From NCBI GenBank assembly GCA_037349105.1, contig JAYJMM010000036.1:5244001-5308000 (forward strand): a stretch of 64,000 nucleotides of DNA. The letters run 5' to 3'. The notes under the pieces were generated by a model, which was not told where the DNA came from, did no database searches, and saw only the letters and a program-made list of their open reading frames with translations. How positions within the stretch are numbered: position 1 is the stretch's first letter; every line of letters starts with the position of its first letter. Positions 27,052 to 64,000 of this stretch are shown piece by piece. Both the position numbers and the translations under genes were made by a program. The DNA is from Limnomonas spitsbergensis. Lineage: Eukaryota > Chlorophyta > Chlorophyceae > Chlamydomonadales.

Positions 27052-27835
27052 TGCCTGTCTTTGTGACCTGTTTTATTTATTCAATAGTCGTCTATTGATT
27101 GCCCGATGGGTCGCTAAGGCTTTACTTAGGAGGAGACTAGAATGCCGAACGTACGCAAGGATAAAGGACACGGCATGAAGGAAATGAAAAGAAACTACAG
27201 GGCGTTTTCGAAAAGTAAGATGTGAGTATGTGACGTATCCCTCTAAGACGCGCCAGGCCTGCCCGAGGCCTGCCGCGACGTTTGCCTCTACGGGCCACGC
27301 CTCGGGGACGCTGTCAGATAAGTCTGTCACTCAAACTCGAATACCGTACGTATTTCAGATTTATTTCAACCACATAAGAGATCGCCCAACGTCATACGCT
27401 TGGGTACGCTTAGGGTGTTGGACAGCCAGCCCAAGAATTGATGCGCCTCGCACAGCCAGCATTAACATACTTCGTGAGTCGATCAAGCAATTTTAGGTGG
27501 GCACCTGAGATTACATAAAACGCCGAAGGAGTTTAGGGTTGGGAGTTCGTTTGGCCATCAATAGAAACCTTCGACAAGAGTTGCGTAACGTACTGCGCCA
27601 CAGGGCGAATTGAGTAGCGAGAAAAATTCATCGATGCGGAGGAACTCTTTGAAGATGCCATAGATGCCCAGGAGTAGCTCATCCAGGAGAAGGAAGACGA
27701 GGATATTGGGTTATTTGGATTACTCCTGGCTGCTGATGCCGAAATACACGCAACAGCAGCAGGTCTCAATCAGGCAGTTAATTACCGGCACAATGTGGGC
27801 AGGACAGCGGATATCAGATGCCGTGAGAACGATGC

Positions 27836-28200
27836 ATGCAGTAGCTACCCGCATGCATGCCAATACACCTTCCGCAAGCAGTTGCTCCCCGCAGGCAAGC
27901 CGGCTCCCCACTTGAATGACAACACCGTGCCTGCACGCAGAGCATCCCACTGGCACGACAGCACTCCGCATGCATGTAGAAGCGTTCCACCGGCAGGACA
28001 GCACCCTGCCAGCATGCAAAGCACCCAGCCGGCATAACGTGCGCCCGGCCATACGGATTGCACCATGCGTGCCTGCAGTAGCGCCCCACCGGCACGACCC
28101 CACTGACATGCACTGCATGCATGCTGATGCACCTTGGCCCCACCTACCTCTGGCAGAAAGACATACGGTACACTCTATGCATGATGCCTAACTACCTACC
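27836..28200. repeat. Degenerate ~50-bp repeats leading into the 41-bp array
   Basis: CATGCATG, GCACGACA and CCGGCA motifs alternate in decaying units. The mirrored block is at about 34730-35090. Confidence 0.55.
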
Positions 28201-28289
28201 TCACTCGCATGCACTTCCTGAGGGCAACAAAACAGCCACACCCACTGGCATGAACTACATGCACCCTTTAGCAACATCACCCCCACAGA

Positions 28290-29540
28290 CATGCTCTGCT
28301 TGCACATTGCAGCACCGCTGCACCCACTGGCATGTACTGCCTGTGCGCAGCAGCACCATTGCACCCACTGGCATTTACTGCATGTGCACAGCAGCACCAC
28401 TGTACCCACTGACATGCACTGCATGTGTGCAGCAGCACCATTGCACCCACTGGCATGTACTGCCTGTGCGCAGCAACACCACTGCACCCACTGACATGCA
28501 CTGCATGTGTGCAGCAGCACCACTGCACCCACTGGCATGTACTGCATGTGTGCAGCAGCACCACTGCACCCAATGGCATGTACTGCCTGTGCGCAGCAGC
28601 ACCACTGCACCCAATGGCATGTACTGCCTGTGCGCAGCAGCACCACTGCACACAATGGCATGTACTGCATGTGCGCAGCAGCCCCACTGCACCCAATGGC
28701 ATGTACTGCCTGTGTGCAGCAGCACCACTGCACCCAATGGCATGTACTGCATGTGTGCAGCAGCACCACTGCACCCACTGGCATGTACTGCCTGTGCGCA
28801 GCAACACCACTGCACCCACTGACATGCACTGCATGTGTGCAGCAGCACCACTGCACCCACTGGCATGTACTGCATGTGCGCAGCAGCACCACTGCACTCA
28901 CTGGCATGCACTGCACGTGCGCAGCAGCACCACTGCACCCAATGGCATGTACTGCATGTGCGCAGCAGCACTACTGCACCCAATGGCATGTACTGCCTGT
29001 GCGCCGCAGCACCACTGCACACAATGGCATGTACTGCATGTGCGCAGCAGCACCACTGCACCCAATGGCATGTACTGCCTGTGCGCAGCAGCACCATTGC
29101 ACCCAATGGCATGTACTGCATGTGCGCAACAGCACCACTGCACTCACTGGCATGCACTGCCTGTGCGCAGCAGCACCACTGCACCCAATGGCATGTACTG
29201 CCTGTGCGCAGCGACACCACTGCACCCAATGGCATGTACTGCCTGTGCGCAGCAAAACCTCTGCACCCAATGGCATGCATACTGCATGTGCGCAGCAGCA
29301 CCACTGCACTCACTGGCATGCACTGCCTGTGCGCAGCAGCAACACTGCACCCAATGGCATGTACTGCATGTGCACAACAACACCTCCACACCCACTAGCA
29401 TGCACTGCCTGTGCGCAGCAGCACCACTGCACCCACTAGCATGCACTGCCTGTGCGCAGCATCACCACCGCACCCACTAGCATGCACTGCATGTGCACAG
29501 CAGCACCACTGCACCCACTGGCATGCACTGCATGTGTGCT
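28290..29540. repeat. 41-bp minisatellite (~30 copies), left arm
   Basis: The unit is CACTGCACCCAATGGCATGT followed by ACTGCCTGTGCGCAGCAGCAC, with CACTG/CAATG and CTG/ATG variants. The unit lacks stop codons in most frames, so very long overlapping open frames arise on both strands. They are artefacts. Confidence 0.92.
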
Positions 29541-32863: not shown

Positions 32864-33739
32864 AAATCTAACAAGTGCATCACTAGACCACTACTGGTAT
32901 CCATTCCTGGATCTCATAGCATAAGTTAGATGAAGTGGTTGCATGACTGCTTCGCCTCCAATGTGCATCGCCATCATTGTTGTGTTATCAATCAATGGCT
33001 GTTGAGCTGAAGCCCCTATATATGCTAAGCATTGAAGCATTCATGGACCACTGCCAATATCCATTCGCGTAACTCATAACACTGGGCAGATTAAGTAGAT
33101 GCGGACTGATTTGCTTCCAGTGTGCATCTTCACCGTTGTTGCGTTGTCAATGGCTGTTAAGCTAAAGCTCCCATCCTAAGCATCGATGGACAATTACCAG
33201 TACCCACACACGTAACTCAAGACACAATGCAGATAAAGTGGATGCGGGACTGATTGGCTTCCAATGTTCAGTGCCTTCACTGTTGTGTTATCAATGGCTG
33301 TTGGGCTGAAGCTTCTGTCCTAAGCATCCATAAACCACTACCGGTATCCATTCACGGAACTCAGAACACAAGGCACATGAACTGGTATTTTCACTCGTTG
33401 GCTTCCATTGCACATGCCATTCATGGTACTGGGGGTGCAGCGGTACTGCAGCGAAGGGGCAGAGCATGCCAATGAGTGCGGTCATGCTTCAACATGTACA
33501 GGCGGTGCATGTCTGTGAGTGCATTCATGCTTCAGCATACATGTAGTGTATGCTGGTGGGTCCGGTACTGCAGCAGTGTTGGCATACAGTGCATACTAGT
33601 GGTTGAAGCGCTACAGCAGTGTTGGCATGACTGCATACCAGTGGGTGCGGAGGTACAGCAGTAAGCTGGCAGTACATGCTAGTGGGTACGGCGATGCATC
33701 ACCGTGTATGTGTTGCGTGTCAATGTGTGTTGCGGTACT

Positions 33740-34620
33740 GTAGCACACATGCAGTGCATGCCAGTGGGTGCAGTGGTGCTGCTGTGCACATGCAGTGCAT
33801 GCTAGTGGGTGTGGAGGTGTTGTTGTGCACATGCAGTACATGCCATTGGGTGCAGTGTTGCTGCTGCGCACAGGCAGTGCATGCCAGTGAGTGCAGTGGT
33901 GCTGTTGCGCACATGCAGTACATGCCATTGGGGGCAGAGGTTTTGCTGCGCACAGGCAGTACATGCCATTGGGTGCAGTGGTGTCGCTGCGCACCGGCAG
34001 TACATGCCATTGGGTGCAGTGGTGCTGTTGCGCACAGGCAGTGCATGCCAGTGAGTGCAGTGGTGCTGTTGCGCACATGCAGTACATGCCATTGTGTGCA
34101 GTGGTGCTGCTGCGCACAGGCAGTACATGCCATTGGGTGCAGTGGTGCTGCTGCACACAGGCAGTACATGCCATTGGGTGCAGTGGGGCTGCTGCGCACA
34201 TGCAGTACATGCCATTGTGTGCAGTGGTGCTGCTGCGCACAGGCAGTACATGCCATTGGGTGCAGTGGTGCTACTGCGCACAGGCAGTACATGCCATTGG
34301 GTGCAGTGGTGCTGCTGCGCACAGGCAGTACATGCCATTGGGTGCAGTGGTGCTGCTGCGCACATGCAGTACATGCCAGTGGGTGCAGTGGTGCTGCTGC
34401 ACACATGCAGTGCATGTCAGTGGGTGCAGTGGTGTTGCTGCGCACAGGCAGTACATGCCAGTGGGTGCAATGGTGCTGCTGCACACAGGCAGTGCATGTC
34501 AGTGGGTACAGTGGTGCTGCTGTGCACATGCAGTAAATGCCAGTGGGTGCAGTGGTGCTGCTGCACACAGGCAGTACATGCCAGTGGGTGCGGCGGTGCT
34601 GCAATGTGCAAGCAGAGCAT
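33740..34620. repeat. 41-bp minisatellite (~21 copies), right arm
   Basis: The mirror image of the array at 28290-29540, with roughly nine fewer units, so the arrays have changed length since the arms were duplicated. Confidence 0.9.
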
Positions 34621-35859
34621 GTCTGTGGGGGTGATGTTGCTAAAGGGTGCATGTAGTTCATGCCAGTGGGTGTGGCTGTTTTGTTGCCCTCAGGAAGTGC
34701 ATGCCAGTGAGGTAGGTAGTTAGGCATCATGCATAGAGTGTACCGTATGTCTTTCTGCCAGAGGTAGGTGGGGCCAAGGTGCATCAGCATGCATGCAGTG
34801 CATGTCAGTGGGGTCGTGCCGGTGGGGCGCTACTGCAGGCACGCATGGTGCAATCCGTATGGCCGGGCGCACGTTATGCCGGCTGGGTGCTTTGCATGCT
34901 GGCAGGGTGCTGTCCTGCCGGTGGAACGCTTCTACATGCATGCGGAGTGCTGTCGTGCCAGTGGGATGCTCTGCGTGCAGGCACGGTGTTGTCATTCAAG
35001 TGGGGAGCCGGCTTGCCTGCGGGGAGCAACTGCTTGCGGAAGGTGTATTGGCATGCATGCGGGTAGCTACTGCATGCATCGTTCTCACGGCATCTGATAT
35101 CTGCTGTCCTGCCCACATTGTGCCGGTAATTAACTGCCTGATTGAGACCTGCTGCTGTTGCGTGTATTTCGGCATCAGCAGCCAGGAGTAATCCAAATAA
35201 CCCAATATCCTCGTCTTCCTTCTCCTGGATGAGCTACTCCTGGGCATCTATGGCATCTTCAAAGAGTTCCTCCGCATCGATGAATTTTTCTCGCTACTCA
35301 ATTCGCCCTGTGACGCAGTACGTTACGCAACTCTTGTCGAAGGTTTCTATTGATGGCCAAACGAACTCCCAACCCTAAACTCCTTCGGCGTTTTATGTAA
35401 TCTCAGGTGCCCACCTAAAATTGCTTGATCGACTCACGAAGTATGTTAATGCTGGCTGTGCGAGGCGCATCAATTCTTGGGCTGGCTGTCCTACACCCTA
35501 AGCGTACCCAAGCGTATGACGTTGGGCGATCTCTTATGTGGTTGAAATAAATCTGAAATACGTACGGTATTCGAGTTTGAGTGACAGACTTATCTGACAG
35601 CGTCCCCGAGGCGTGGCCCGTAGAGGCAAACGTCGCGGCAGGCCTCGGGCAGGCCTGGCGCGTCTTAGAGGGATACGTCACATACTCACATCTTACTTTT
35701 CGAAAACGCCCTGTAGTTTCTTTTCATTTCCTTCATGCCGTGTCCTTTATCCTTGCGTACGTTCGGCATTCTAGTCTCCTCCTAAGTAAAGCCTTAGCGA
35801 CCCATCGGGCAATCAATAGACGACTATTGAATAAATAAAACAGGTCACAAAGACAGGCA

Positions 35860-35933
35860 GCCCTCCTAGCTCAGTTGGTCAGAGCGGCGTGCTAATAACG
35901 CGCAGGTCAACGGTTCGATCCCGTTGGAGGGCA
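35860..35933 (+). tRNA. tRNA-Ile (anticodon AAU), right palindrome arm
   Basis: It is identical to the left-arm tRNA at 26978-27051, as far as can be read, and transcribed in the opposite direction. The stems, AAT anticodon and A discriminator are intact. It is followed by TTTT at 35941-35944 (pol III terminator). Both copies therefore look functional. Confidence 0.96.
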
Positions 35934-36959
35934 GGTAATACAGTTTTATAAGCGCATGCAGTGGAAAAGTTATGCAGGTCATCACGCGTGAACAGACTGC
36001 CTGGTGTAGACAACCCCAATATGCGTTTGTCAACGATATCAGAGAGCGTGGGATGGTGCATAGCGTCGATAAAGGTCAGGCTATGATTCCACCTACCCAA
36101 AGTACAACCCATCATGCGTGTGCACCCCATGCAGGAGCATGTGGACACTTCAGTAACATCCACTTTGTGATTGACTGCTGAAAATAAATGTACGATGATA
36201 TTATGGTATGCACAAGAACTCCGCTAATGTCGTTCCTCGTTGGACCTCTGCGGAAAGTGAGTTTATGGGAGAGACCAACTGTCGAGAGCTTGATGATCGC
36301 AACTGCTTACGCGATTGGCGAGAGATGCGGTCGTGTAGCGAGGTTACTCGACGGAGGGGGCCATGACCAAACAATGTAAAACGCTGCAGAGAAAGCTTGT
36401 CAATGCATAACCTATGATTCATGCCACACGCGCTTGTGCTGGAAAGTCGACACTTTCTTATATTCCATCGCTGTCGAGCGACGGACGATGCGAGTGATGT
36501 GGACACTATTTTGTGGTCGGCGGATTATTCGCCACTCGACGCGCTCGTCGTACGATTCCTTCGCAGCAGGTGCACATTATTACGATTTACGTCCCAATCT
36601 TAGTAGTCTGCGTGCAGAAAGTGTTTGCCAGTGCACGTGTGCCCGGTAAATCTCGCATATGCTGGCGATGAAAATGCAGCGAGCGAGGTCCATGCTCACG
36701 CACTCCACTATGCGATAGTTTACTATACAAGAGATCTCTGGTTACTACACCACGTCACCACACAGTTCCCTGCCATTACGCGCGCCCTGTGCTGACGTGC
36801 CTGTTTACGCAGGCAGTTCGGTGTGAACATCTCATACATGTCCCTGCAATCCTGCATACATACCCGCCCTCATGTTTGCTTTCTCATTCATTTACATTGA
36901 TCGTAGGCCTCTCACCCTGCCCTTCATCAGCCCCTTGCCCCTCGTCTTGCTGTCGAGCC

Positions 36960-48650: not shown

Positions 48651-50081
48651 ACCTCTTCTAGGCTTCCCAGAAACCAGGTCAGAAGGTGACCTCTTCCCTA
48701 AGTTTAGTACCCAGAACTTAGATGCCGTAGGAAAGAGGCAACCGTCCAGAGGGAAAGCCTTCCTAGCCGTTGAGGTTTATGTCACGGTATAATGCAGTAT
48801 ACGTGCCAAAACCGTAGGGACCGCTGATGCGTCCCCGTAGACTCCGCAGCTTCCCTGCGGAGCCCCCTTTTTAGGGTTAGGAGCCCAGCTTCCCACTTTC
48901 GGGAAGGTCCGAGGCAGGATTTCCCGTACTCAGTAAATAGGGCTTGCCGGGACCTTTGAATCCCGGCTTGCACGCTTGACACTTACTTCGTTCCTTTTTA
49001 AGTGGACAGACCTCTAATTGTAAACAGCACCGGCCTTTGTCCAGGATAAAGCCCAGTGAAGAGCATTAAGTCAGTACCCCAATTACAGTCAAGCCTAGTT
49101 CAGCTACTCAGCCGACATAGCAAGCTCAAGACTCCCTAGCGGGAAGCCCGACTCAACCTAGGACTACGTCTACGGTCAGCGTCTGCGGCAACCCCCGCTT
49201 TACGCGGTAAGTGATCTCCCGTCCTGCCCGGCTCGCTACCCGACAGGCCGTGGATCTAGCCCTCCGAGCGTAGCACCGTGTCTATCATCTAGAAATCCCA
49301 GCCGCAGCTTAACGCGTTGCGCATCCGCGGCCAGTGTGTAGACACTGAGCTCGCCCGTAGGCGTCCGCCACTCTGTGGGGAAGAAGTCCGCCACGGACCT
49401 GAAGCAACCATCGCGTGTCCACTTAAAAAGGAACGAAGTGGGTCTAAGCCTGATCAGCTTGATCCAACGAATCCTGCTAAAGGTGCATGTGCTGTGAACT
49501 TGAATTTCTTTTTGAAGACAGCGGAACTGCCTTGGACAGCTAGAAATCACTTAGCAGAGGATTCTCCATAGAACCCAAGTCAATACCTGCTTGCGCTGGG
49601 CGTGGCAACCCAGAAGCAGACGTAGCTTGAAGATCAGGCTGTGGAGTTATAAACCCAGCTATTGCCTGTGCACGTGGCCTGCATCCGTGGTAGAGTGCAC
49701 AACCTGCGTGTTGACAGAAGTGAGCAAGGATCCGGGATCCGAGTTTAAAAGCAGGCAACCCAAGACTGTGTGCAGGAATATCCGAAGCTGCAGATTGCAG
49801 CCCGAGCGGGACCTGCAGAGATTGAGGAGGAAGCTGCGTGGCGAATCAGCGGAGGAATAGCGGACGAGACCGGCAAGATAGCTGACGAGACAGCAGCCCA
49901 GAAGGTGAAAATACCCGCCAGAACCAGTTTAAAAAAAATTACCCGTGCTTGACCTGTCTAGCACCGCCTAACCAGCCTGCAGAAGGTAGAGGAGAACGGA
50001 AGCAGGCTTTGAGCTAGTGACCAGTGGCTGTGAGCCCACACAGCGAACCGACACAGCTGCTCAGCACCCAGCAGTAGTACA
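48650..50081 (+). other. Presumed 5' LTR/leader of the retroelement
   Basis: No open frame of note. A TATA-like GGTATAATGCAG is at 48785. A strong hairpin (CTCCGCAG, loop, CTGCGGAG) lies at about 48840-48865 and is followed by CCCCCTTTTTAGGG. A perfect 24-bp inverted repeat (48985-49008 and 49416-49439, containing TTCGTTCCTTTTTAAGTGG and its complement) encloses 407 bp. A tRNA-like stretch near 49678-49757 was examined and not accepted. LTR ends and primer-binding site remain unassigned. Confidence 0.45.
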
Positions 50082-53000
50082 ATGCAGGACGCAGTTGTAG
50101 ATCCTGATCGTCACCTGCACCCAGAAGCTGCAAGGCGCAGTGCACGAGTGAGAGGAATGGAACCAGGAAATGACCCCATGACACCCATCAATGCAGCCGT
50201 AGCAGAAGAAGCTAGGCAAATTGCCATTGGATTGTCAGAAGGTGAATATGCAGGCATAGGGGAAAACAAGGTCCAAGGGGCCGACAGCACCCTAGCCTTG
50301 GATGCGGGTATGGTGCAAGTTCAAGTGACACGCAGGGGTATCGGACGAGGCGGCATAGCGCGCATCCCCCCTGGCCCAAGCCAGGAGGAAGAGCAATGGC
50401 CGGTTCCCGACGATGAGTCCCTGGACCCGACCTCAGAGCCACCCACTGTGAGGTCTCAGACCGGTGGTGTAGGAGAGGGTGGCGGGCCAGCACGACCTCC
50501 GGATGACCTGCCTGCGGAGGCAGAAAGGGAAGGAGGCGAGGCTGAGCCCAGACCAGACCAGGAGCCCCAGCTTGAACCCGCAGTGGTCAGGGGGATGGTC
50601 CAGTCAACGATGGTCAGGATGGAGCGGACGAGATCCAGCGAACAGCAGTCCCAAGGGGAGTCAGCGGAAACAACAGGGAGGCTGCGGGAGCTGCAGAAAT
50701 ACAGCGACACACAAGCCACGACAACGCAGGCTACCAGAATATGGCAGCCGCAGGCTGATCCGCACGCCAAGGTAGTGCCGCCAGATCAGCACGGAAGAAT
50801 GCAGGCGCCAACGGGAATCCCGCCCAGGCCAGATCTGCACAGGGTGAAACAGGCAAGGCCGCCCCGTATCCCGGCAGAGGAAGCAACAGAGGCATCGACA
50901 TACGGCACACCCCAGTCCAGGTTCCCAGCCAGTGCAAACAGGCCAAGACAGGAGGCCGTGGCAGAGGGCAGCAGCAGGGAAAAGGAGGGCAGCGGCCAGG
51001 CTCACAGCCTTTACGGATATTTCAGCAATCCAGAGTGGACGCCTATCCCAGGAGAGCGGCGCCCGGCAGTGGGAGAACGCGCAGGGAGCATAAGCCAGCC
51101 GGGTGCGGCAGAACCACCAGGACTCCAGCCCATTGGATGGGCAGACATCCTGCAATGGGCAGCGCGGCTATGGCAGCAGGTGTGCTCCAAGTGTTTCGTC
51201 CACCTCAGCGATCAGACCCAGGCTATCAAGGAGTTCCAAAGCCACCACCTGGCGGAATGGGCAACAAAGGCCCTTATGGGCATCCCGCACACGGGACAGG
51301 ACCGGGCAACGCTGCTGGCGGCCCTGCGCAGAGTGTCCAGAGGAGCAGCAGGGCCAGAGGCGGCCCTGGCTGTCAAGGCCTTTGCCGACGGGTGGTGCAA
51401 CGGCACAGCAGGGGATCTGGAGGAGCCCGAATCAGAGCAAGAGGAGCTCGAGGAGTGGGAAGGGTTCGAGACATCCAGGCTACAGCAAGACAACCGCAGG
51501 GAGGTGCAATGGCAGCAGCAGACGGAAGGGACCATTCCTGCTGCAAGACAGGCCAGATGGGAGAGCCTGGAAGCCAGCAGTGAACCCAGCCTCCGAAACC
51601 AGCGGCTGGACGTAGAGCGCAGACCCAGACCCAGCAGCCCAGCGGCCAGCGAACAGCCCAGGACAACTGGCTTCCAGCAGGACCCAGCGCCAAGGAGGGC
51701 CAGCAGGCAAGAATCTCACGACTTGTTGCGCTTCGTGGATCAGCACGGCGGCCAAGAAAGCCAGGTGGACCACATCGCTGAGTTCCTGCGAGGACAAGCA
51801 GCACAGGCACATGGCAGGCCGGAGAGGAGCCAAGGCCCCAGCCAAGGAAGGCGGGTCATTCAGGAAATCAACCCGGCAGGCTCCACGGGGGGAGACTACC
51901 AGCAAAGACAGGAAAGCAGGGACGACTGCCTGTCAGCTTCTGAGGCAAGGGAGTACACAGGTGGAACGCAGCCCAGCAGGCATGGCAGCTACCAGCCCAG
52001 CAGGCAGGCGGAGTCAGAAGGGGGTAGGCGCCAGGACCCAGCAAGGCAGCCTTCGGAGGGCAGTAGGCCATCCGGCAGAGGGCAATCCCACCTGAGCGCA
52101 GACCGCAGAGACCAGCGGGATCGGCGCAGGCAGAGCCCGACCAGGAACGGCGGCGGCGGATCTGGCTCGGACCCCAGCATATCAGGCTCGGAGGATACAG
52201 AGGGGCGCGGCCCAGGCTCCGGCAGGGAATCTGCGAGACATAGAAGGGAAAGGTTAGCCCAGGAGCAGGCGGAGACAAACATACGGCTGCAGCAACAGAT
52301 GATCCTGCAGTTGGCTGGGGGAACGCGGTTCACCAAGATCCCCAACATTCAGGGCAATGTGCCAGTGCTGGACATGTCCCACCCGGGGGCAGTCGCAGCC
52401 AGGCAATACTGCCAGGCCTGCAGCTCTTGGGGATCGCACAACCGCCTGGCTTTATCGGACGAGCCGCCAGCCCTGGCAGTGGTGGCTGGAGAGATTGCAG
52501 GGTCTTGCCAGTCTCCCTCAGCCATGGCCCTGTTGGTCCGCTCCTTGGTGGGCATGTGGACAGCCAAGCCGGCCTGCGTGGGACCACTGGTGGTCGCCAT
52601 ACGATCAGCACCCCAAGGAGACAAAGCTTCCAGGGAGGTCGAGCGGATCCAGGAAGCATGGAGAGCCCCAGTGGATGAGCCGCCCTGCGAGGTATCCTTG
52701 CTAACCCTGTGGATCAGGGTGGTCCAAAGGGAGGTGGGCAAGCCAACTTCAGATGAGAGGGCCGCAATCACCGGCCTGAAGCTGGGGGTCAAGACCACCT
52801 TGGACCCAGGCGTCAAGCCAGAGGAGACAGTGGAGGCATTCGCCTTTCGAGTCATGTCTACAGCAGAGCTGTTGCAAATCTCCAGAGACGCAGTGGACCA
52901 CTTCGGCAGGAGGCATTCGGTGGCCCACATGTTCTACGAAGGGCTGCCAGGGGCAGTCAGAGTGAAGCTGACAGCTTTTATCATGACCGTGCCAGGATAC

Positions 53001-54482
53001 CTGCACATGACAGACGAGGCCCAGGTAGAGGTCCTGACGCAGCAGGTGCTGCTGTGGGAGAGGTTCGCCCTGGAATTGGGGGACCTAGCTGCCATGGACA
53101 CCAGGCAAGGACCAGGAGACCATCAGCAGAGGAGCCAGGGGGAGCAACAGGCGGGACGCGGCAGACGAGATCGGCCCAGCCAGTGGGAAGCCAGGCCCAG
53201 AGGGGATGGACCAGGAGTTGCGCCATACCAGAACAACAGCCAGCCTGCCAGGCAGGAGAGCAGAGCCAAGGGCGTCACGTGGGCCGACCAAGCCACAGCC
53301 TTGACAACCAGCACCCACAGCACTGGGGGCGCCCCCAAAGCCTGCTTCCAATGCGGCAGCCTGGACCACCTGGCAAGGGACTGCAGGACTCCCAGGGCTA
53401 GAGACGAACGCCGCCCTGCTCCCCTGGCCACTGACATCACCACGGGGCAGGCGCGGCCGCCTCAACAGCAGTACCCGCCGCCTCCAAGACCGCAGGGGCC
53501 ACCCGCCAACAGGACCTACGACAGAAACCAAGGAGGCAGGCCGGCCCAGAGGCAGCCGCAGGGGCAGGCGGGGCATGGCCAGCAGTCAGCTCATCTGTCT
53601 CACCTTTCTGGCCCCTCCGAGCTCGCTGAGCCGGATGGGTGGCACCAAACGGTGGCCGAAATGCTCAGCGAGTCCGTGGCCCTACTGACGCAGGTTGGGC
53701 TGGCACCCAAGCCTGGAGAGTACAAGCAGGCAGCCCACAACGCCAGGCCACGGTCCTTTAGACCCTCCTCTAGCAGTGAGGAGGAGGAAGAGCCGTTGGT
53801 TATTGAACACCCTTCCAGGAAGGGAGAGAAAAGGCTTGCTCTTAGGCGACTAGCTGACGGCCTGTGCGATGTCCGTGCGCAGGTGGGCTACATCAACGAA
53901 CGACTTACAGCGCTGGCGCACACCACCATGCCCATGGGAGTCACGTCGGTCCGTGGTGAGCCGGGCTGGATAGGTCAGGGTCGTAAGATCACCATCAGCC
54001 CGAGGCTGCAATACTTCACAAACGACAGGCGAGATTACAGCCAATGCGTAGGCCTCATGGTGAAAGGGAAGGTGCTGGTGGCCCAGAAGGCACTAATGGA
54101 CACGGCATGTTCATGCCATGTCATCACCGTCAACATAGCAGAACAGCTGGTAGCCATGGGGGCCAAGCTGGTACGGACGGATGAAAAGATCAGGACAACC
54201 GATAATGCAGGAGCAGACCTATACGGGATTCTGTTCATCTACGTCGTGTACGGGTATGGAAGCCCGAATGCGATCGTGGAGAAAGCAGCGGTCAGGGTGG
54301 TCAAGACGCCTCCTGACGCGTATGAGCACCTGGTGGGGAACCCCGAATTCCTCAAGTATGGGGGAATCCTAGAAGCAGCAGGGCGCCTAACCCTGTTCCC
54401 TCAGGGGGGGGCCAACGGGCTTACCCTGCCGCTAGAACTGATATCACCAGCAGGAGCCCACCAGGCGGCCGCGGCAACCTAG
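50082..54482 (+). CDS. gag: Retroelement ORF1: Gag with CCHC knuckle and retropepsin-like site
   Basis: A 1466-codon frame begins at ATG 50082. Residues ~1-860 are Q/R/E/G-rich and probably disordered. Residues ~870-1005 form an alpha-helical, capsid-like region (segments WIRVVQREVG, VEAFAFRVMSTAELLQ, HMFYEGLPGAVRVKL). A CCHC zinc knuckle CFQCGSLDHLARDC lies at 1088-1101, followed by an acidic SSSSEEEEEP run near 1230. From ~1325 the sequence VLVAQKALMDTACSCHVIT has the place and pattern of an aspartic-protease active site, with DTAC at 1340-1343 where retropepsins usually have D[TS]G. The frame ends at UAG 54480-54482, but the same frame stays open for 198 more codons. The role is particle assembly and RNA packaging, inferred from the family layout. 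Confidence 0.85.
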   Translation: MQDAVVDPDRHLHPEAARRSARVRGMEPGNDPMTPINAAVAEEARQIAIGLSEGEYAGIGENKVQGADSTLALDAGMVQVQVTRRGIGRGGIARIPPGPSQEEEQWPVPDDESLDPTSEPPTVRSQTGGVGEGGGPARPPDDLPAEAEREGGEAEPRPDQEPQLEPAVVRGMVQSTMVRMERTRSSEQQSQGESAETTGRLRELQKYSDTQATTTQATRIWQPQADPHAKVVPPDQHGRMQAPTGIPPRPDLHRVKQARPPRIPAEEATEASTYGTPQSRFPASANRPRQEAVAEGSSREKEGSGQAHSLYGYFSNPEWTPIPGERRPAVGERAGSISQPGAAEPPGLQPIGWADILQWAARLWQQVCSKCFVHLSDQTQAIKEFQSHHLAEWATKALMGIPHTGQDRATLLAALRRVSRGAAGPEAALAVKAFADGWCNGTAGDLEEPESEQEELEEWEGFETSRLQQDNRREVQWQQQTEGTIPAARQARWESLEASSEPSLRNQRLDVERRPRPSSPAASEQPRTTGFQQDPAPRRASRQESHDLLRFVDQHGGQESQVDHIAEFLRGQAAQAHGRPERSQGPSQGRRVIQEINPAGSTGGDYQQRQESRDDCLSASEAREYTGGTQPSRHGSYQPSRQAESEGGRRQDPARQPSEGSRPSGRGQSHLSADRRDQRDRRRQSPTRNGGGGSGSDPSISGSEDTEGRGPGSGRESARHRRERLAQEQAETNIRLQQQMILQLAGGTRFTKIPNIQGNVPVLDMSHPGAVAARQYCQACSSWGSHNRLALSDEPPALAVVAGEIAGSCQSPSAMALLVRSLVGMWTAKPACVGPLVVAIRSAPQGDKASREVERIQEAWRAPVDEPPCEVSLLTLWIRVVQREVGKPTSDERAAITGLKLGVKTTLDPGVKPEETVEAFAFRVMSTAELLQISRDAVDHFGRRHSVAHMFYEGLPGAVRVKLTAFIMTVPGYLHMTDEAQVEVLTQQVLLWERFALELGDLAAMDTRQGPGDHQQRSQGEQQAGRGRRDRPSQWEARPRGDGPGVAPYQNNSQPARQESRAKGVTWADQATALTTSTHSTGGAPKACFQCGSLDHLARDCRTPRARDERRPAPLATDITTGQARPPQQQYPPPPRPQGPPANRTYDRNQGGRPAQRQPQGQAGHGQQSAHLSHLSGPSELAEPDGWHQTVAEMLSESVALLTQVGLAPKPGEYKQAAHNARPRSFRPSSSSEEEEEPLVIEHPSRKGEKRLALRRLADGLCDVRAQVGYINERLTALAHTTMPMGVTSVRGEPGWIGQGRKITISPRLQYFTNDRRDYSQCVGLMVKGKVLVAQKALMDTACSCHVITVNIAEQLVAMGAKLVRTDEKIRTTDNAGADLYGILFIYVVYGYGSPNAIVEKAAVRVVKTPPDAYEHLVGNPEFLKYGGILEAAGRLTLFPQGGANGLTLPLELISPAGAHQAAAAT

Positions 54483-55076
54483 GCAGGCTTGGACGACCCC
54501 GCCTGGGTGCCGGAGGAGTGGCCGGCAGATTGGGGCGAGATGAAACCGGACTTAACCCCACAATGTGCCATGGTGACAGGTACAGGAGGCGGCCCTGCGA
54601 CGCAAACCACAGTCGTCGCAAACCGCGTCGTCCGTCTGCCCGCGGCAGAGGCACCTGCGGCAGCACCAGAAGGGGCCAAGCAGGCCAGGGCCAAAGGGGC
54701 CCGTGGCGCAGGTACTGATGCAGCACGCCAGCAAGCAGGGCAAAAGGGAACCACCCCCGCTGCAGCGCCAGAGGCAGACCCAGCAGCCTGTACCCAGGCT
54801 CACGCAGCGCCGGCGGACCCGGACGGTACCAGGGGTACCGGGAGCCGGTCCATCAGCGGAGACAAGGGCGGCAAAGCCGTGGGCCCCTCCGTAGCAGCGC
54901 GGGACAAGGACGGCAAAGCCGTGAACCCTCCCGTAGCAGCGCGGGACAAGGCGAGGCTAGCCATGGAGCAGGAGCACACCGTCCGACAGGAGGTCAGGAG
55001 TACCCTGCGCAACAGGGACGGCCCCTGCGCGTATTGCGCAGATCGCATACGGACCAGGAATGCGAGCGGCGGCTAG
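54483..55076 (+). CDS. In-frame continuation of ORF1 beyond the UAG stop
   Basis: The ORF1 frame continues for 198 codons after UAG (followed by G) to the next stop at 55074-55076. It is A/G/R/K-rich and includes two ~45-bp direct repeats (AGCGCGGGACAAGG-type). It overlaps the open ORF2 frame from 54719 on. It could be translated only by stop readthrough or after an internal start. Alternatively the UAG may be a recent inactivating mutation. It lacks recognisable domains. Confidence 0.45.
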   Translation, partial: AGLDDPAWVPEEWPADWGEMKPDLTPQCAMVTGTGGGPATQTTVVANRVVRLPAAEAPAAAPEGAKQARAKGARGAGTDAARQQAGQKGTTPAAAPEADPAACTQAHAAPADPDGTRGTGSRSISGDKGGKAVGPSVAARDKDGKAVNPPVAARDKARLAMEQEHTVRQEVRSTLRNRDGPCAYCADRIRTRNASGG

Positions 55077-58000
55077 GGGAGCTCCTGGAGAACGAGCCGG
55101 GCCGGGGAGTAGACACGTACAGCAGAGGCAGCTGCCAGCCAGGCTCCCCGGCTACGCACACTCGGGACACCAGCTCCAGCGATGAGGGAATCACCGAATC
55201 CGAGACTGAGCTGCAGGCGGACAGGGACGCTCCCAGGGCAGCCGTCGTCAGCAGCCTGGAGGCCCAGGTCCAGGTCCTGAACAGGGCCATCCGGACCGCA
55301 GCCAGGCAGAAAATCGCCAGCAGGGAGGCAGACATATATTCCTTCAAGACGGAACAGGCCCGGGCAATGGCGGACGGCGCTTCAGAGAGGGAGATGGCCC
55401 GGTGGAAGGGCGAGTGCGCCAAGTGGATCATAGAGGTGAATGAGCTCAAGGAGTACAAGGGCACAGAAGCAGCCCCTGAGCCGGCCCCCCATCGCCCCTG
55501 TGGAGCCCAGCGGGAGGCCTGCAGCGGGGCGAGGGAGGCCAGGCAGCAGCAGCCTGCGGCAGAAACGACTGTCGAGCCCCCGCAGCAGGACGCGGCACCA
55601 AGCGAAGGAGCCAGGGGAGGAGGACAGGACGGCAAAGAAGGAACGCCCAGGGGTAAGCCCACTGAGGTGCAGGAGGTCCTGCGCGAGCTCGACGACCCTG
55701 ACCTAGGGGACTACCCGGAGGACCTGTTGCAGTCTCTACGGGACAATAGAGCCCAGCCCAAGCAGAGCAATCACCCCAAGGCAAGGGCCAGCCGCACCCC
55801 CTCTCCACGGGCAAGGGAGTCAGGCAGCGGCCCAAGCCGCAACCCCGACAGCGGCAGGGCGCCCAGGAGCGCCAGCGCCGCAGAGCGTCAGCCAAGGGGA
55901 AGGAGCCCACGGCGCAGTAGCCACAGCAGGGAGCGGCGGGCTCCAAACACCGAGCAGCACCAGGACGGACGCTGGCCGGAGGGGCCGACAGAGAGAAGGA
56001 CCGGCGCACAACAGCCTCGGGCGGGGTCACCGGACAGAAGGCCACCTCCACCCCCGCAGGGCGCCAGCGGTGGCAACCAGCGGCCCAGGGGCAGGGAGAC
56101 CCTCAGCCCAGACGGCAAGAACCGGAACAGAAGAACCCGCAGCCGCAGTCCCGTCACCCCGGGCAACCCACCCCGCCATGGCAGCAGAGAACCCGAGAGC
56201 AGGAGCGGCGGGCACTGGGAAGGGGAGGCGGCACGTAGCCCCCGCGGCGAGCGTTGGCCGCAGGGCAGAGCCAGAAGCCCCATCAGGCAACGCCAGGCAC
56301 ACAGCCCCGTTAGGCGATCACCAGCCGAGGAGCCAGGGGAGAACAGGAGGATCAGATGGGCACCGCCGGAGGACTCTGCCCGGGGAAGGACTGGCAGAGC
56401 ACCCCCTACACAGAAAGAAGCATGCTACAAGTGCGGAGGCAGCGGCCACTTCGCCTTCGAGTGCAACCAGACGCAGGCCCAGCCTTGGAGACCCAGCGGC
56501 GGGGGCGAGGGCCGAGCACCAGCCCAGGACAACCCGGGACACAGTCGCTTCATGCAGGAGGAACCCCCCAGCGGCAACCAGCAGCGCGAACGCCTCCGCG
56601 ACCTGTTCGAGGCAGCCAAGGACGAGCCATTCGAGGTATGGGCAGCCAGGCAGGCAGGCGCCCCGCCCGCCAACTTCCTGCCAGGACCACCGGAGGGACC
56701 CAGGTGGGCGGGCAAAGGGGCCCATGGGTGCTTCGCCACCATCCCCAGGGGGCACGACCCAGGGTTCGACGAACCAGACACCTGGTTTGAGCAGGAGTGG
56801 GATGACGCATACCTAGAAGGGCAGGAAGAGCAGGCAAGGCAACCATTGGGCCTTCATGAAGGACGTGAGCCCGAGCCAGGGTTAGACCCAGAGGGGATAG
56901 CCACGGAGGCGCGGAACGGAGAAGTGCCCCAGCAAATCCACCATTGGCGGGTGGCCGTGGAAGCAATTGCCACCAATGGCCTCTTGACCATGCCCGCAGA
57001 CGCCCCTAAGAGCACAGCCCATGCCCTAGAACTCCTGGACTACATGAGACGCATGGGAGCACCAGCCCCTCAAGAGGGGTGGCTCGCCTTGCTCGCAAAT
57101 TTCCTGGCCACACTCAGGGCCAGGGAAGACCAGGGCAACAGCGATTCAGAGGGCAGCTCCCACAGACAGGACCCCGAGATGTCAGGGGAGGCCTCAGGGC
57201 AGGAGGGGGAGTCAGACGACCCTTCCCAGGGCATTTACGACCCCCCCGACGTGTTGTGCCCAGGTACCCCGGAGGCAGGGGAACTCGCCGCAGGCCCAAG
57301 GCCAGCAGCTTCCGCGGAAGGAAGCGGTAGCAGCCCCATGCTGCAGGCCCAGGGGGCCACAGGGGGCGTCACCAACCGGCCCCCAGCCGCAAGCAGCGGG
57401 CACCGCAGCTGCAGGACAGAGCATGGATCAACAGAAAGGACATGGATGGAGGAGGAAGCACCCAGCGGAAGAGAGCAGTGGGGGGACCCAGAGGAGCCGC
57501 AGAACCCAGAACACTGGGGGAACAGCGGCCTCAGCGCTGTAGAAGACGCAGAGGACCTCGACGCACCAAGCCCAGGGACTGGCAGGCCCTGGCCTAGGCG
57601 ATGCTTCGTGCAGTGGTACCCGGCAGGTACAGACATGCCAGAGGTTGCCACCACCGAGGCCATGATCACCCTTCCCGGCACGGGCGCGGAAGGCCTGTGC
57701 AGGTTGCAAAACCATTGGTGCATACCGCGGGGGGAAGTCATCTGTGTTGACAGACAGGCAGCGCTGCAGGCAGTAGCAAGGTTGGTCTTCCCTATGGACG
57801 CTGTCACTGCGGGGCTCCTAGCAGCGGCCATTAAAGGGTACATCAGACCTAGCACGGCCATGGAGGAGTTCATGAGCTCCACGTGGATAACCCCCCTCTA
57901 CGCGAACTGCGTCAGCGAGCTCCTGGGCAGCGTCGTCAAGGAGGGGATTACCGCAGCAGAGGAGCAGATCAGGACCAGCTCGGAGATACCAGACGCGGCA

Positions 58001-61000
58001 CGGGCATACGGCATGTGGCAGCACGCCCACGACGGGTTCATGCGGACACCATGGGCAGAGAACTGCGTCATGACTCTCGCTCGCCACCCGTGCCTGGCCA
58101 ACCAGGCCGTCTGCGTACCCACACAAGCAGCAGCCAGGCAGGCGTACGCCCTGGCGGCACTGAGGGACCACAGCGGGTACGACGGTGCCGGGGTCCTCCA
58201 TCCAGGAACGCCTCGCCAATGCCCCAAGATCGTCGAGAGAGGGCAGGACATCGCCAGAGAAGTCATGGGCCAGGCGGTACCCTGGGGGTACGAGCCAGGT
58301 GACGCCAGGGCAGCTATCCCGGTTAGGCTGGCGGTGGCATACTACCACGAGGCCCTGGAGGGGCAGTGGCCGAACCCAGCACCGCGGGCATGGATCCACA
58401 TGCATGCCACACGCGACGACCAACCCGTGTGGTTCTTCTTCAAGACGGCTACCCAGGTGCAGAGTGTCCGGTGTCCCTCCGTAGAACGGGCAGAGGAGCA
58501 TGCGGTATCCACCTTCAGAGGGGCAGACCCGGCGGTGTGGACCATCATGATGATGGCCCTTAACAGGACATTGCTGCCAGGACAGATGTCAGCAGCTGTC
58601 AAAAACATCGAGATAGTGGACGAACTGTGGGCACCCCAGGAGAGAGCCGACTGCCCCACGCAAGTATCAGCGCACTGCACGCCAGAAGCGGGTGCAACCG
58701 CATGGCCAGGCGAGCAGGCCCTTGCCCTCTCAGCCTTTGCCCAGGGCAGGCTGCAGAGCTGCCTACAGCAGTGGTTGCGGGTGGAGCAGGCAGCCTACTA
58801 CAACGGCGTCCCATCCATCTTGCTGCCCCACTGGTCTGCCCCGGCAGCCACCGTCCGCCTTTGGTGGCAAAGGCACCCCAGGGGAGCAGTCACGCTCCAC
58901 CCCCTATTCAGCGGCAGCAATCACGATGAGGCCTTGAGGGACCTGACAGGCCTGCTGGATAGGGGCATAGCGGACCGTCAAGAGACACCGCGGGGGCGTT
59001 GGGGAGCATTCAGGGAGTCGGCCAGCCCAGGCAGCACTCATAGCCCCGACGAAACTACCCTCAACATGCAGCCCGGCAGCAGGGAGCAATCTTTCTTCAC
59101 CTCCCTGAGGGGGGGCAACTACGAGGTGGATTGGCCCGAGTCAGACGAGGAGAACAGCCTGGCAGGACTGCCGCAGCTCCTGCAGGACTCGGATTCCGAG
59201 GAGGAACCGGCAGGCACAGCGGGGCACACCGAGCCACCGGAAGGGAGGGCGGCAGTGCCCAGCGAGCATACTGTACCTTCAGCAGGTCATACGCAGGGGG
59301 ACAGTCAGCAGAGCCGAGCCCCAGCAGAGCAGCCAGAGCCTGCAGCAACCATGGGATCCCAGGCAGATACCCCACCCAGCTGGAGCAGGGGGCTCAGCGA
59401 AACCGGCAGCGAGGCCAGCAACCCAGATCCTGAGGACCCTGGCCCGCCACTCCTGGCAGCCGAGGGGGAGCCCGATAACAGGAGTGTAGATCTCAGCAAG
59501 GAGCAGTGGGATGACGAGTTACGACAGTTTGTGGCCCGACGTGACAGGCAGCGGCTCGAGGGCGGGGCACCATGGCCAGTCCCCCAGGGAAGCCCCGAGC
59601 CCAGGGGCGGCCGCATCGAGGCCAGCCTGCGTTACAGGCTGAGCATGGTCCCAGACCCCAGCCCCGACCCCAGGCTGCAGGGGCGCAACCAGGCAGCGGA
59701 GGAGCTGCGGCAGGCATTCCGCGGCCGATTAAGGGCCCTCAGCGAGGCACAGCCGCCAGAGCTGGAGGGGGACCCAGGCACAGGCGGCGCCGTGACCTCA
59801 GGCCAATCCTCTGGCTCCGGCCAAGAGCGCACGGAGCCGTGCGCAGGGTGCGACCAGGCCCGCACAGGCGAGCGCTTGATCTGGTGCAGCGCATGCGGAA
59901 CAGCATGGCATGACCTGTGCATGAGAACACCGCGGACAGGGGCAGCCAGGGTGTGCCAGTTCTGCATGACCCCCGAGGCCAGGCTGCCAAGCTGCTTGGG
60001 ATGCGGAGAAAGCATTGGCCCAACAGAACAGCCCAGCAGGCGTTGCTGTCGTTGCCACGCCACGGCATGCGGCGCCTGCATGGACAAGCCGGGCGTAGGA
60101 GGTACCCGGCGAGGGGCGTGGGCCTGCTGCGGCTGCAGCGATGCAGTTCCCCCGGCGTGGGGCCACCACTCCGTCCACAGCGAGCCGTGCGAACGCTGCG
60201 GAAAAAAGGGGCACGACTACCACGCCTGCCCCGCACCACGCCTGCGAGAGGGCAGATGCGCCATCTGCTTCCACCAGGGGCACTTAGCCATGGCATGCCC
60301 CGAGAGGAACCAGTCGCTGGGTTTCATCAGGCAAAGGCAGATGGAGGAGGACTCCAGGCTCGGGGTGCGATGGTGGTGCAGCGCGCAGGAAGCCTTGCCC
60401 GGCGAAAGGAAGGTGGTGTTCAAGGCAGCGCACAGCAGGGCAACCGTCTCCGACGTACGGCAGGCCATCGAGGAGCGAAGGCAGGACGAGGCCAACCAGG
60501 CTAGAAGGGGGGAGCAGCGCCCAGTGCCATTCAGGGAATGGTACAGGGAAACAGCAGACCAGCCCCTACAACCGTCCATGCACGCAGTCCAGTACGCCCA
60601 GATCCTGTCCATCGGGGCAGAGCTCATCAAGGCCAATGACGAGGGGCGGTGGCCAGAGGCAGGCGAGCCATTGGACAACTGGCCGGTGGAGTGGGGGGTT
60701 CCGGAGAGAACCAGCCTATGGAACTACCAGGCCATCCAGCGAACGATGCTCCAGCCCCACCAGCTGGGCAGACAGCCGCGCAGCGCAGCCAGGAGCAGCA
60801 GCAGCGCCAGAGCCCAGACTGTCAGCCCGGAAGGCGCTTACAGATTCGCTGCAGGCTGCACAGGTCCAACAGCGGCAGAGGGACATCAGACCCCCACCAG
60901 CAGGGGCGAAACCAGACCAGCGGACTCCTCCAAGGTCAGGGCCGCAGCAGCGCGAAGGGCAAGGAACGCCAGGACCCGCGCGCGCCAACGACGCAGGAAA

Positions 61001-64000
61001 GCAGCGGCAAGAGACGCCAGTAACAGCACAGGGTGCCCATCGCCACCCACCAGGATCAGCCAGGTGGAGCTGGAAATCTCCTGGCGGGAGGGACCAGAGG
61101 ACCGGGGCCCGCCAGCAATGCCATCACCGCCAGCTCCTGCAGGACCACAGCCCAGCCCCAGACAGCAGCCGGCCTGCAGGGGTCTCCTTCCTTGCACAGC
61201 ATTCAGGGGCCTTCTGGCTTGCCTATGCCACCTGGCATTGGTGTGGCTCCTGCTCTCCTGCCTCCCCGGGGCACAGGCCAGCGGAAGGGGCGTGCGAGGA
61301 GGGGGATTCACTGCCGGACAAGGAGCATTCGTCAGCAGCAGGGAGGCAGCTGCCAAGCTGGAGCCTGGTTGGCTGCGACCCCCAGTGGATATGCCCGCCC
61401 CTCGGCCCCCCCGTCAGCAAAGCACCTGGGATCAGGGCACGTCCAGCGCAGGGCCACAGGCAGTGACAGGGGAGCCGCTGGCAGGGGGAGTCATCGACAT
61501 GTTCCAGCCCGGAGGGGTGGTGCATGCACCCTCAGAGTACGTCAAGACTGAGGAGGGGTGGCTGCTCGGGAAGCACCCCGACTTAACTGGGGAGCAGCAG
61601 GAGCAGCTGGAGCAGAGCCTACGGGACCGCCAAGGGGCGTTCGCCTACTCCATGCTTGAACTGCCAGGCTACTGCGGTGCACAGGGTGAGTTTACGCTGG
61701 CCCTAGAGGACGAGCACAGCTCGTGCTTTCAGAAAGCAAGGGACATGCCACCCCCTAAAGCAGCCATTTTCAAAGAGAAGTGCCAGCCCATGATAGAGGC
61801 AGGCATTATTGTCAGGGTCCCCCAGGGAGGGCCCATCAAGTTTGCGGCCAACTCAGTCGTAGCGGCCAAGAAGTGTGCCGAGACAGGCGAGTGGTCAGAT
61901 CACCGCATTGCGCATGACATGAGGAGAATGAACCTCCGCACGGCCAAGCAGGAGTTTGCTATCCCCAGGATGGAAACTATCTTTCAGAACCTGGGCACAG
62001 CTAAAGTGTTTAGCAAGGTGGATCTGAGGTCAGGATTCATGCAGATCCCGATCAAGGTCGAGGACCAGCCCAAAACGGCTTTCTGGATGGGCCCAGAACT
62101 GTGGATGTACACAAAGTTGAACTTTGGGCTGCGCAACGGGCCTCCCTTCTTCCAGCGTATGATGGAGGAAGAGATCGCCAGGGCGGGCCTGAGCTCCTTC
62201 TGTGTGGCATTCATTGACGACCTGCTGGTGTATAGTGACACGCCTGCAGATCACATCAGGCATGTAGAGCTCATGCTAGACATGCTCCACGCGGTAGGAC
62301 TGCGAGCACATCCTGACAAGTCCCTGTTTGGGTGTGCCACGGTGGAGTACCTAGGCCACAACGTCTCGGCCCAAGGTCTCACACCGCACGCAGCCAAAAT
62401 AGCGGCCGTCATGGCTCTGCCCGAACCCGCATCGGTCAAGAACATTCAGGAGGTCATGGGATTCCTGAACTTCTACCGGTGCTACATCCCGGATTTCTCT
62501 CGAAAAGCCGCATGCATCAACGCACTGCTTGTCAAGGGGGTCCCGTTTGTGTGGGGTCCCGAGCAGGCCCAGGCGTTTCAGCTGATCAAAACTGAGATGT
62601 GCGAAGGAGGCAGGGTGCTACGCAGACCTGACTACAGCGGAACGGGCCCAGATGGCAAGGGGCCACCAAGGCCATTCCTGTTGTACACCGACTTCTCTAA
62701 ACAGGGTATAGGGGCGGTGCTAGGGCAGTGTGATGACAGCGGCAGGGAGTACATGGTAGCCTGCACTTCCCGTTCCCTGAACAAAAGCGAAAAGAACTAC
62801 TCGTCATTCCAGGGGGAAATGCTCGCCGCAGTGTACGCTGCCCGCACGTACCGCCATATGCTCTTTGGGTGCAAGGTGCATTTGGTCACAGACCACGAAC
62901 CCCTCACCTATCTCATGGATAACCAGGCCCTAGTGGGGCAGCACGCCCGCTGGGCACTCATGCTCCAGGAGCTTGACATTACCATTGTCCACCGGTCAGG
63001 GGCCTGCCACCAGAACGCAGATATCCCGTCTAGGTCACCCCTCCCGTCATCTGACGACCGCACAGGAGCGCGGCTAGACGATGTCGCCCCTGAGCCGCAC
63101 ACCCCTAGTGGGACCGCCTGCGGACCACAGGTCGCTATGCTCACAGGCCTAGGCAGGGTAAACCAGTGGCACGCAGATCAGGTGGTTCGCCTAGCACAAG
63201 AGGGCAGACGAGGCGTGCGCCGCCTGCGGGCCGCTGAGACGGCATGTACAGTGGCCCCGTGCGGCCAGGCTATCTCCAGCGCAAAGGATGAGGACGATGA
63301 GCAGGCACAGCCTGCCAGTACTGCAGAAAGAGCTTTCAATAGCAGGGCCAGGGCCAGGGACCTGATCAACAATGTGCTGACCGACCTGCCCCGCTCGACC
63401 CCGGCCCACCTCCATGCAGGGGTGGATACGGCATGCCTACCAACAGAGGCGGTGTACGCCCTGGAGCAAGAGGGAGTGGTCCTGTTCGAGCCCTTCGGAG
63501 GTATGTGCTCTGGGCTTGAGATGGTGCTTAGGGCAGGCATCCCGGTCACACAGTATCTGAACGCCGACACCAGTGCCACCATGCGGGAGATCGCGGGGGG
63601 GAGACTGGTGCAGCTGCACAAGCAATACCCGCTATTGCTCCCAGCGCCAGCTGTCGAGGGGGCGTTCAGGGCATTGCCCCAGGACGTGTACTCCATTACT
63701 GCCCAGCACTTCATAGAGGCTGTGGCACAGCAAGGTCGCCAGTGGTTTATGGTAGCAGGATGGGAGTGCCACGACTTGTCGGCTGCAGGCAAGGGCAAGG
63801 GGCTCGAGGGGGACAGGAGCAAGTCTTTCTTCCCGCTTATCAAGCTGCTCGGCTCCTTGCAGATTCTGCAGAGGGCCAAGCCGCCAGCATACCTGATTGA
63901 AAATGTCGCTATGCAGCTAAACCAGAGGAGCGAGAAGGCTAGCGTAGAGGCTTTCGGCGAGGTGTGCAGGATGCTGGGCAGGCCTTCCCTGTTTGATGCA
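54719..64000 (+). CDS. pol: Retroelement ORF2: RT, RNase H, PHD finger and C5 DNA methyltransferase (3' partial)
   Basis: One frame is open from 54719 through the window end (3094 codons, no stop). Its first ATG is at 55367, so it is probably reached from ORF1 by a -1 shift. In order: coiled coil (55200-55440), arginine/serine-rich region (55790-56340), CCHC knuckle CYKCGGSGHFAFEC (56423-56464), a globular region of unknown type (57590-58990) and an acidic stretch. Then follow a PHD-type C4HC3 finger (59840-59965), another Cys-rich block, and CCHC knuckles CERCGKKGHDYHAC (60188-60229) and CAICFHQGHLAMAC (60257-60298). The reverse transcriptase (61680-62460) has LRSGFMQIPI and FIDDLLVYSD. RNase H (62660-63040) has LLYTDFS, GEML, TDHEPL and NADIPSR. 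A C5 methyltransferase follows from ~63480: motif I-like FEPFGGMCSGLEMVLRAG, catalytic-loop GWECHDLS, and ENV in AYLIENVAMQ. No integrase is seen before the window ends. Confidence 0.9.

Follow-up and report, generated by a model that had tools for sequence, protein, structure and literature searches.

Retrotransposons that carry a cytosine-5 (C5) DNA methyltransferase (MT) have been described as SymbioDIRS-Dnmt3 and SymbioLINE-Dnmt in dinoflagellates and as KnitGypsy-Dnmt3 in Klebsormidium nitens; among green plants, the last type was known from this one charophyte and was presented as an acquisition there (PMC5890265). The main text of the same paper contains no mention of Chlamydomonas, Volvox, Haematococcus or chlorophytes, a 2025 survey mentions that, in streptophytes and dinoflagellates, DNMT3s lie within DIRS elements and within Copia elements with long terminal repeats (LTRs) (PMC12344493), and, according to a review, 12 surveyed algal genomes yielded DNMT3/DRM homologues only for Klebsormidium and a red alga (PMC9861306). 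Here, we describe a retrotransposon of 19,710 bp from Limnomonas spitsbergensis, an Arctic snow alga whose genome contains 4.41% Gypsy/DIRS1 and whose genome paper does not use the word methyltransferase in its main text (PMC11228838). The element begins in a window of 64,000 nucleotides (the whole stretch analyzed, C36:5244001-5308000), and the genome searched comprised 260,226,709 bases in 124 contigs.

Sequence comparison demonstrated a single pol frame, the order A1-PBS-ORFs-purine tract-B1-A2-B2 (A and B, repeats; PBS, primer-binding site; ORF, open reading frame), 4-bp target-site duplications, a PBS complementary to the element's own repeat and purifying selection on the MT. We propose, with moderate confidence in the reading as a whole, that the element belongs to a Ty3/gypsy-related green-algal lineage whose Pol carries a DNMT3-type MT between RNase H and a DDE integrase, and which primes its own reverse transcription, passes through a circle and uses the MT to mark its own DNA.

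A methyltransferase within the pol frame

The element extends past the window end and was read into the neighboring genome sequence with a stretch (L017) that overlaps the last 1000 bases of the window exactly. The pol frame (ORF2) runs for 3956 codons without a stop and encodes, in this order, a zinc knuckle, a PHD-like cluster, the reverse transcriptase (RT) core RVT_1, RNase H, the MT, H2C2, rve and a PHD finger (Table 1). In the window part of ORF2, Pfam matched RVT_1 at E = 1.3e-21 and RNase H at 1.7e-29; H2C2 (4.9e-13), rve (3.6e-11) and PHD (1.1e-10) were found behind the MT (protein P0131). This result agreed with the initial annotation, made from the window alone, which had placed motifs I, IV and VI of a C5 MT in one frame with a Ty3/gypsy RT-RNase H. 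It had remarked that no integrase precedes the MT; the integrase is not missing, as it lies downstream of the MT. The closest PDB sequence of the integrase was Ty3, and its DDE residues were D598, D658 and E693 of P0131. The arrangement of a Gypsy-type RT-RNase H followed by a DDE integrase is that of Ty3/gypsy elements, and the element ends in A on the 5' side and in B on the 3' side rather than in two identical LTRs. Judged by its sequence, the element is Gypsy-type in its enzymes but is not an ordinary LTR element.

The zinc knuckles named in the initial annotation were recovered, two by Pfam (ORF2 residues 568-592 and ORF1 residues 1103-1118) and two further CCHC patterns in ORF2 by regular expression, and the PHD finger that it named corresponds to a PHD-like cysteine cluster at residue 1708 that was seen by regular expression only; the Pfam scan of the window ORFs gave no PHD match there. 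A protease was suspected from a DTACS motif in ORF1 by reading alone, and the Pfam scan gave it no support. No tyrosine recombinase (PF00589) was found in the Pfam scans of ORF1 and the window ORF2 (E 0.1) or of P0131 and ORF1 (E 10). Several element copies (C36:3739800 and others) contained a single open frame of ~5270-5315 codons, while the window copy splits gag and pol.

The MT motifs followed the canonical order I-IV-VI-VIII-X, the last two of which, like the integrase, were found once the contig was extended downstream. Motif IV reads GWECHDLS and motif VI reads ENV, with the catalytic Cys and Glu both present. At the PF00145 cut-off of 22 bits, the complete MT domain alone passed narrowly (24.0), and the scores were below it for the MT within the longer P0131 (21.7) and for the window part alone (19.5). 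The best match was DNMT3A (60.6 bits), and a DNMT3 was also the best match of the homologue P0006. By motif order and best match, the MT is classed as a DNMT3-type C5-methyltransferase, with the phage-type MT P0145 scoring close to DNMT3A (68 bits); phage-type MTs were the only outgroup of the MT tree. Of the DNMT3/DRM style suggested at first, the DNMT3 part was retained, and a DRM-like MT was ruled out by the canonical, non-permuted motif order. The genome also contains further cytosine methyltransferase frames (L009, L010 and L011), which have Pro-Cys motifs and are bacterial- or virus-like by reading.

The RNase H-MT junction, where a stop or assembly join in other copies had been considered, had an uninterrupted frame in L055, a separate copy, and in L060 of sub-family X; a further copy (L056) aligned throughout but carried two stops, of which one lay in RT-RNase H and the other in the MT. 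The ratios of nonsynonymous to synonymous substitution rates (dN/dS) between the window and L055 were 0.048 for RT-RNase H, 0.112 for the linker between RNase H and the MT and 0.099 for the MT; between the window and X, they were 0.017, 0.084 and 0.082, respectively, at a dS of >1.5. On these ratios, the MT is under purifying selection that is weaker than that on the RT.

Searches with the MT region revealed 8 proteins that were 44-53% identical to the window MT, and searches with the RT-to-MT region revealed 145 proteins, of which 120 were listed. A profile built here detected the MT domain, partial in some cases, in 126 of 128 homologues (P0003-P0130), a share that is biased upward because the search queries included the MT. 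The two homologues without it were P0128 and the arachnid P0130, in which the gap between RNase H and integrase was 180 and 83 residues, respectively, compared with a median of 633.5 residues in the 118 proteins with both domains placed. The labelled algal sources among the matches listed were Haematococcus lacustris, Pleodorina starrii, Tetrabaena socialis, Monoraphidium neglectum and C. reinhardtii; none of the matches listed (120 of 145 in the RT-to-MT search) was labelled Klebsormidium, and the majority of rows carry no organism label. Another family member, P0038, was deposited as part of a bacterial (Minisyncoccia) metagenome bin and is most likely a eukaryotic contig that was wrongly binned. 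A profile search (16 matches) added MT domains labelled Closterium sp. NIES-54 (P0139 and P0142) and the liverwort Calypogeia fissa (P0140); in these gene models, which are candidate fusions, the MT of P0139 adjoins a Copia-type gag domain and that of P0140 an aspartic protease domain.

Split repeats and a primer-binding site complementary to repeat A

BLAST of the flanks gave the repeats A and B, in the order TTTA-A1-PBS-ORFs-purine tract GTGAGGAGCGGGGG-B1-GC-A2-B2-TTTA. The ends are not simple LTRs but split repeats in the order A-ORFs-B-A-B. A1 and A2 differed at 2 of 636 positions, and B1 and B2 were identical at 233 of 234 (BLAST of flanks). The window element is, as far as its sequence tells, an intact-looking and recently inserted copy.

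A search with A1, in which 40 of 2022 candidates were scored, gave 30 loci, among which 11 pairs of 5' and 3' ends were matched by place; the remaining loci had no partner within the 30. All 11 pairs were flanked by 4-bp target duplications (ATTA, GGGG, TTTA, CATT, AGGG, TGCA, TGCA, TTTG, GACA, CATA and TTGA), as was an element of sub-family X (C36:3725553-3744453; A 68% identical) with TATA, giving 12 of 12. The divergence between A1 and A2 in the 11 pairs was 0 to 0.95%, with zero substitutions in three, which indicates recent activity.

At the inner B|A joint, the sequence forms a perfect palindrome of 10 bp, GACAGCTGTC (GACA-GC-TGTC); its halves, without the middle GC, correspond to ...GACA and TGTC... 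at the outer ends. Among 16 3' ends, the A2|B2 joint was exact in 12 and contained T, A, TG and TG in the other four. When up to 4 extra letters were allowed, this joint was found at 511 places; most of the 100 listed were exact and lay in tandem arrays, and TGT, T and A occurred once each. The extras T, TG and TGT would fit an incompletely removed start of the PBS, while A does not. Additionally, head-to-tail A-B arrays with a unit of ~885 bp were observed at C15:1173899-1216220, at C18:10118-21666 and 96616-115066, and at L061, one of them reaching a contig end, and the B|A joint was counted 975 times genome-wide, against 4 in the control, with 100 of the places listed. The element ends seem to have given rise to these satellite arrays.

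Immediately after A1 come 24 nt that match the reverse complement of A positions 206-229 exactly. Full pairing was found in 14 of the 17 5' ends examined (L029, a 3' end, falls outside this set): in 6, five A in the PBS are matched by five T in the A repeat, and in 8, four A are matched by four T over the full 23-24 nt. In L049, which belongs to sub-family X, the motif in A2 deviates from the four-T form at 5 of its 23 positions, and the site predicted from it was found at 572 places (274 + 298) when up to 2 mismatches were allowed, compared with 0 for the reversed control. One of these places is the 5' end of the same element as the L049 A2, and the three X loci that were fetched all paired over 23-24 nt. 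The window-form site (four or more A) had 67 exact matches (control, 0). Since the two patterns differ at 5 positions, the sets of 67 and 572 do not overlap at 2 mismatches, giving 639 junctions between A repeat and PBS in two sub-families. At ~19 kb each, these would total ~12 Mb, an upper guide, as many are surely shorter. These comparisons show that the PBS is complementary to a stretch of repeat A in the same element and that, between sub-families, changes in one are compensated in the other, the pattern that marks a self-priming element.

Table 1. Features of the element, in window coordinates (positions above 64000 lie beyond the window)
Feature	Position	Strand	Remarks
Target-site duplication TTTA, 5' copy	48776..48779	none	3' copy 68490-68493, beyond window
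Repeat A1	48780..49415	+	636 bp, start TGTCAC
Self-primer motif ACTTCGTTCCTTTTTAAGTGGACA	48985..49008	+	inside A
PBS	49416..49439	+	directly 3' of A1; perfect 24-nt reverse complement of self-primer motif
ORF1, gag-like frame	50034..54482	+	first ATG 50082
ORF2 (pol)	54719..64000	+	still open at window end; TAA stop 66587-66589; first ATG 55367
Zinc knuckle in ORF2	56420..56494	+	residues 568-592; Pfam
PHD-like cysteine cluster and two CCHC patterns	59840..60298	+	residue 1708 on; CCHC at 1824 and 1847; regular expressions
RT core RVT_1	61913..62365	+	residues 2399-2549; Pfam
RNase H PF17919/PF17917	62552..62971	+	residues 2612-2751; Pfam
DNMT3-like MT, first part	63455..64000	+	motif I 63485, motif IV Cys codon 63767, motif VI (ENV) 63899
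MT motifs VIII and X	64019 and 64313	+	beyond window
Integrase H2C2 and rve, then PHD finger			beyond window, after MT
B1	67387-67620		beyond window
A2	67623-68258		beyond window
B2	ends 68489		beyond window

Elsewhere in the window, an inverted repeat (26174-29193 and 33718-36737) has 3020-bp arms that are 97% complementary, with 4.5 kb between them and 41-bp tandem repeats within them; it is perhaps a large palindromic DNA transposon. Long tandem arrays were present at 12244-13640, 15918-16656 and 18633-20288, with units of 33, 27 and 51 bp, respectively.

Proposed replication route and role of the methyltransferase

In the route that we propose, the RNA would start near position 206 of A, and its first 23-24 nt would anneal to the PBS to serve as primer for reverse transcription in a Tf1-like manner. 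Synthesis from the PBS, with plus strands from the purine tract before B1, would give a product B-A-ORFs-B-A, whose ends would be joined into a circle, giving the A2|B2 joint; the integrase would open this circle at the palindromic B|A joint and insert A-ORFs-B-A-B. The circle was proposed because the integrated order is obtained when the B-A-ORFs-B-A product is rotated by a single B, which places A2 next to B2. The MT, released from the same polyprotein, would most likely methylate cytosines of the element's new double-stranded DNA or fresh insertion, so that the new copy would pass as methylated host DNA, and the PHD finger would probably help the integrase choose chromatin; these MT and PHD steps are the least supported part of the explanation. 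The initial annotation had likewise suggested that the element may methylate its own copies or its target sites. More broadly, and only tentatively, a retrotransposon lineage of Chlorophyceae, probably also of streptophytes, may combine features so far seen separately, bringing together Gypsy enzymes and 23-24 nt self-priming with DIRS-like split repeats, which would arise as a DDE integrase opens a two-repeat complementary DNA (cDNA) circle at an internal palindrome instead of using RT-made ends, and with a DNMT3-type enzyme that marks the circle before insertion.

Several observations weigh against the proposed route and self-marking. Three of the 17 5' ends were not fully paired, as the pairing of L043 is interrupted by a mismatch close to its start and that of L025 and L045 is limited to 13 nt. 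The low dN/dS of the MT is no proof of selected catalysis, because the linker ratio was similar. CpG observed/expected was 0.62 in the element versus 0.58 in the rest of the window, which gives no sign of stronger 5-methylcytosine decay, and 8 of the 32 A1-A2 substitutions in the 11 pairs were CpG-context transitions, a mild excess at best. The KnitGypsy-Dnmt3 MT was without activity in yeast, in a test that its authors deem inconclusive (PMC5890265). Within the MT family, 9 of 127 domains (P0072, P0068, P0070, P0114, P0086, P0095, P0099, P0102 and P0090) lacked the motif IV Cys and the EN of motif VI while still being recognizable: motif I was retained by all 8 domains long enough to include it, and the WTNLA region was mostly kept. 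The 8 that could be placed in the tree formed one clade (support 98/97), which includes the three volvocine-labelled rows and is, by these losses, classed as a pseudo-methyltransferase. Additionally, the window motif IV has Glu-Cys where Pro-Cys is usual, as do 74 of the 127 domains (E 74, P 34, S 5, D 4 and C 1 in the 118 with Cys); Pro directly before this Cys is usual in C5 methyltransferases, but relatives vary, so it is not defining. These features would suit an MT that is mainly structural or nucleic-acid binding, like DNMT3L, with dispensable catalysis. We consider this improbable, as EN was kept in all 118 Cys-bearing domains, and Cys, EN and both motif VIII Arg were invariant in 11 aligned rows (37-80% identical to the window MT), which were selected among Cys-bearing domains.

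A different target for an active MT was also considered. The PHD finger may serve as a reader for an enzyme that acts in trans on the insertion-site chromatin or the host genome and thereby places or silences new copies rather than disguises cDNA. We regard this as unlikely, though a serious alternative: the PHD finger lies behind the integrase in all 4 polyproteins scanned as well as in the window's element, and its best PDB matches include WSTF, Lid (KDM5), BAZ2A/B, CHD4, PHF21A and ATXR5. Several of these PHDs read unmodified H3K4, and ADD pairs with DNMT3 in animals, which we counted in its favor. A role on RNA, in which the MT would mark the element's genomic RNA, was suggested for SymbioLINE-Dnmt by its authors (PMC5890265), but is very improbable here given the best match to DNMT3A and a DNMT2 match of only E 0.016. 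The chance that an assembly join or a fortuitous motif match explains the fusion is practically negligible: the window MT part alone falls under the Pfam cut-off, but the same junction recurs in separate copies and also in proteins of other origin, the assembly is PacBio-based (PMC11228838), and the domain frequency among the homologues likewise refutes an artefact. The role of the MT, for which we continue to favor self-marking, is directly testable by native long-read methylation analysis, because the genome contains 639 junctions and copies without A1/A2 substitutions.

Comparison with known retrotransposons

PAT/Ngaro-type DIRS share the split direct repeats A-ORFs-B-A-B with the present element, but they have a tyrosine recombinase and are not known to form target duplications, in contrast to the rve integrase, TG..CA ends and 4-bp duplications (12 of 12) found here. 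The Pfam matches of P0131 and ORF1 included no chromodomain. The Tf1 primer is 11 nt long. Tf1/sushi and Tcn1 are Gypsy elements that resemble the present one in a PBS complementary to their own RNA, but they are chromoviruses with ordinary LTRs, unlike the 23-24 nt primer and split repeats described here; non-chromoviruses were reported as not found in algae in the same survey (PMC6317226). PAT-like DIRS occur in Chlamydomonas and its kin (PMC8226300). The repeat layout provides a concrete test case for a circle-based integration route of a DDE integrase. In the literature covered (titles and abstract starts, with subscription papers and preprints mostly outside this scope), this feature set was not found.

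A mobile element with a de novo type DNA methyltransferase reverses the usual picture in which the host methylates the element. SymbioDIRS-Dnmt3 and SymbioLINE-Dnmt share the retrotransposon-borne C5 MT, and SymbioDIRS-Dnmt3 also the repeat order A-coding-B-A-B, but they use a tyrosine recombinase or long interspersed element (LINE) machinery, whereas a DDE integrase and target duplications were found here (PMC5890265). KnitGypsy-Dnmt3 is similar in description, with a Dnmt3-type MT in a Gypsy Pol, repeats described as DIRS and purifying selection on the MT; its accessible text gives no primer site, target duplications or PHD finger, all of which are present here (PMC5890265). The present elements have the Dnmt3-like MT in a Gypsy Pol and the DIRS-like repeat order that define this type, and, compared by description, they and KnitGypsy-Dnmt3 are likely one family. 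The type extends beyond the one published charophyte to sources labelled Haematococcus, Pleodorina, Tetrabaena, Monoraphidium and Chlamydomonas, and related MT domains, element context apart, to those labelled Closterium and Calypogeia.
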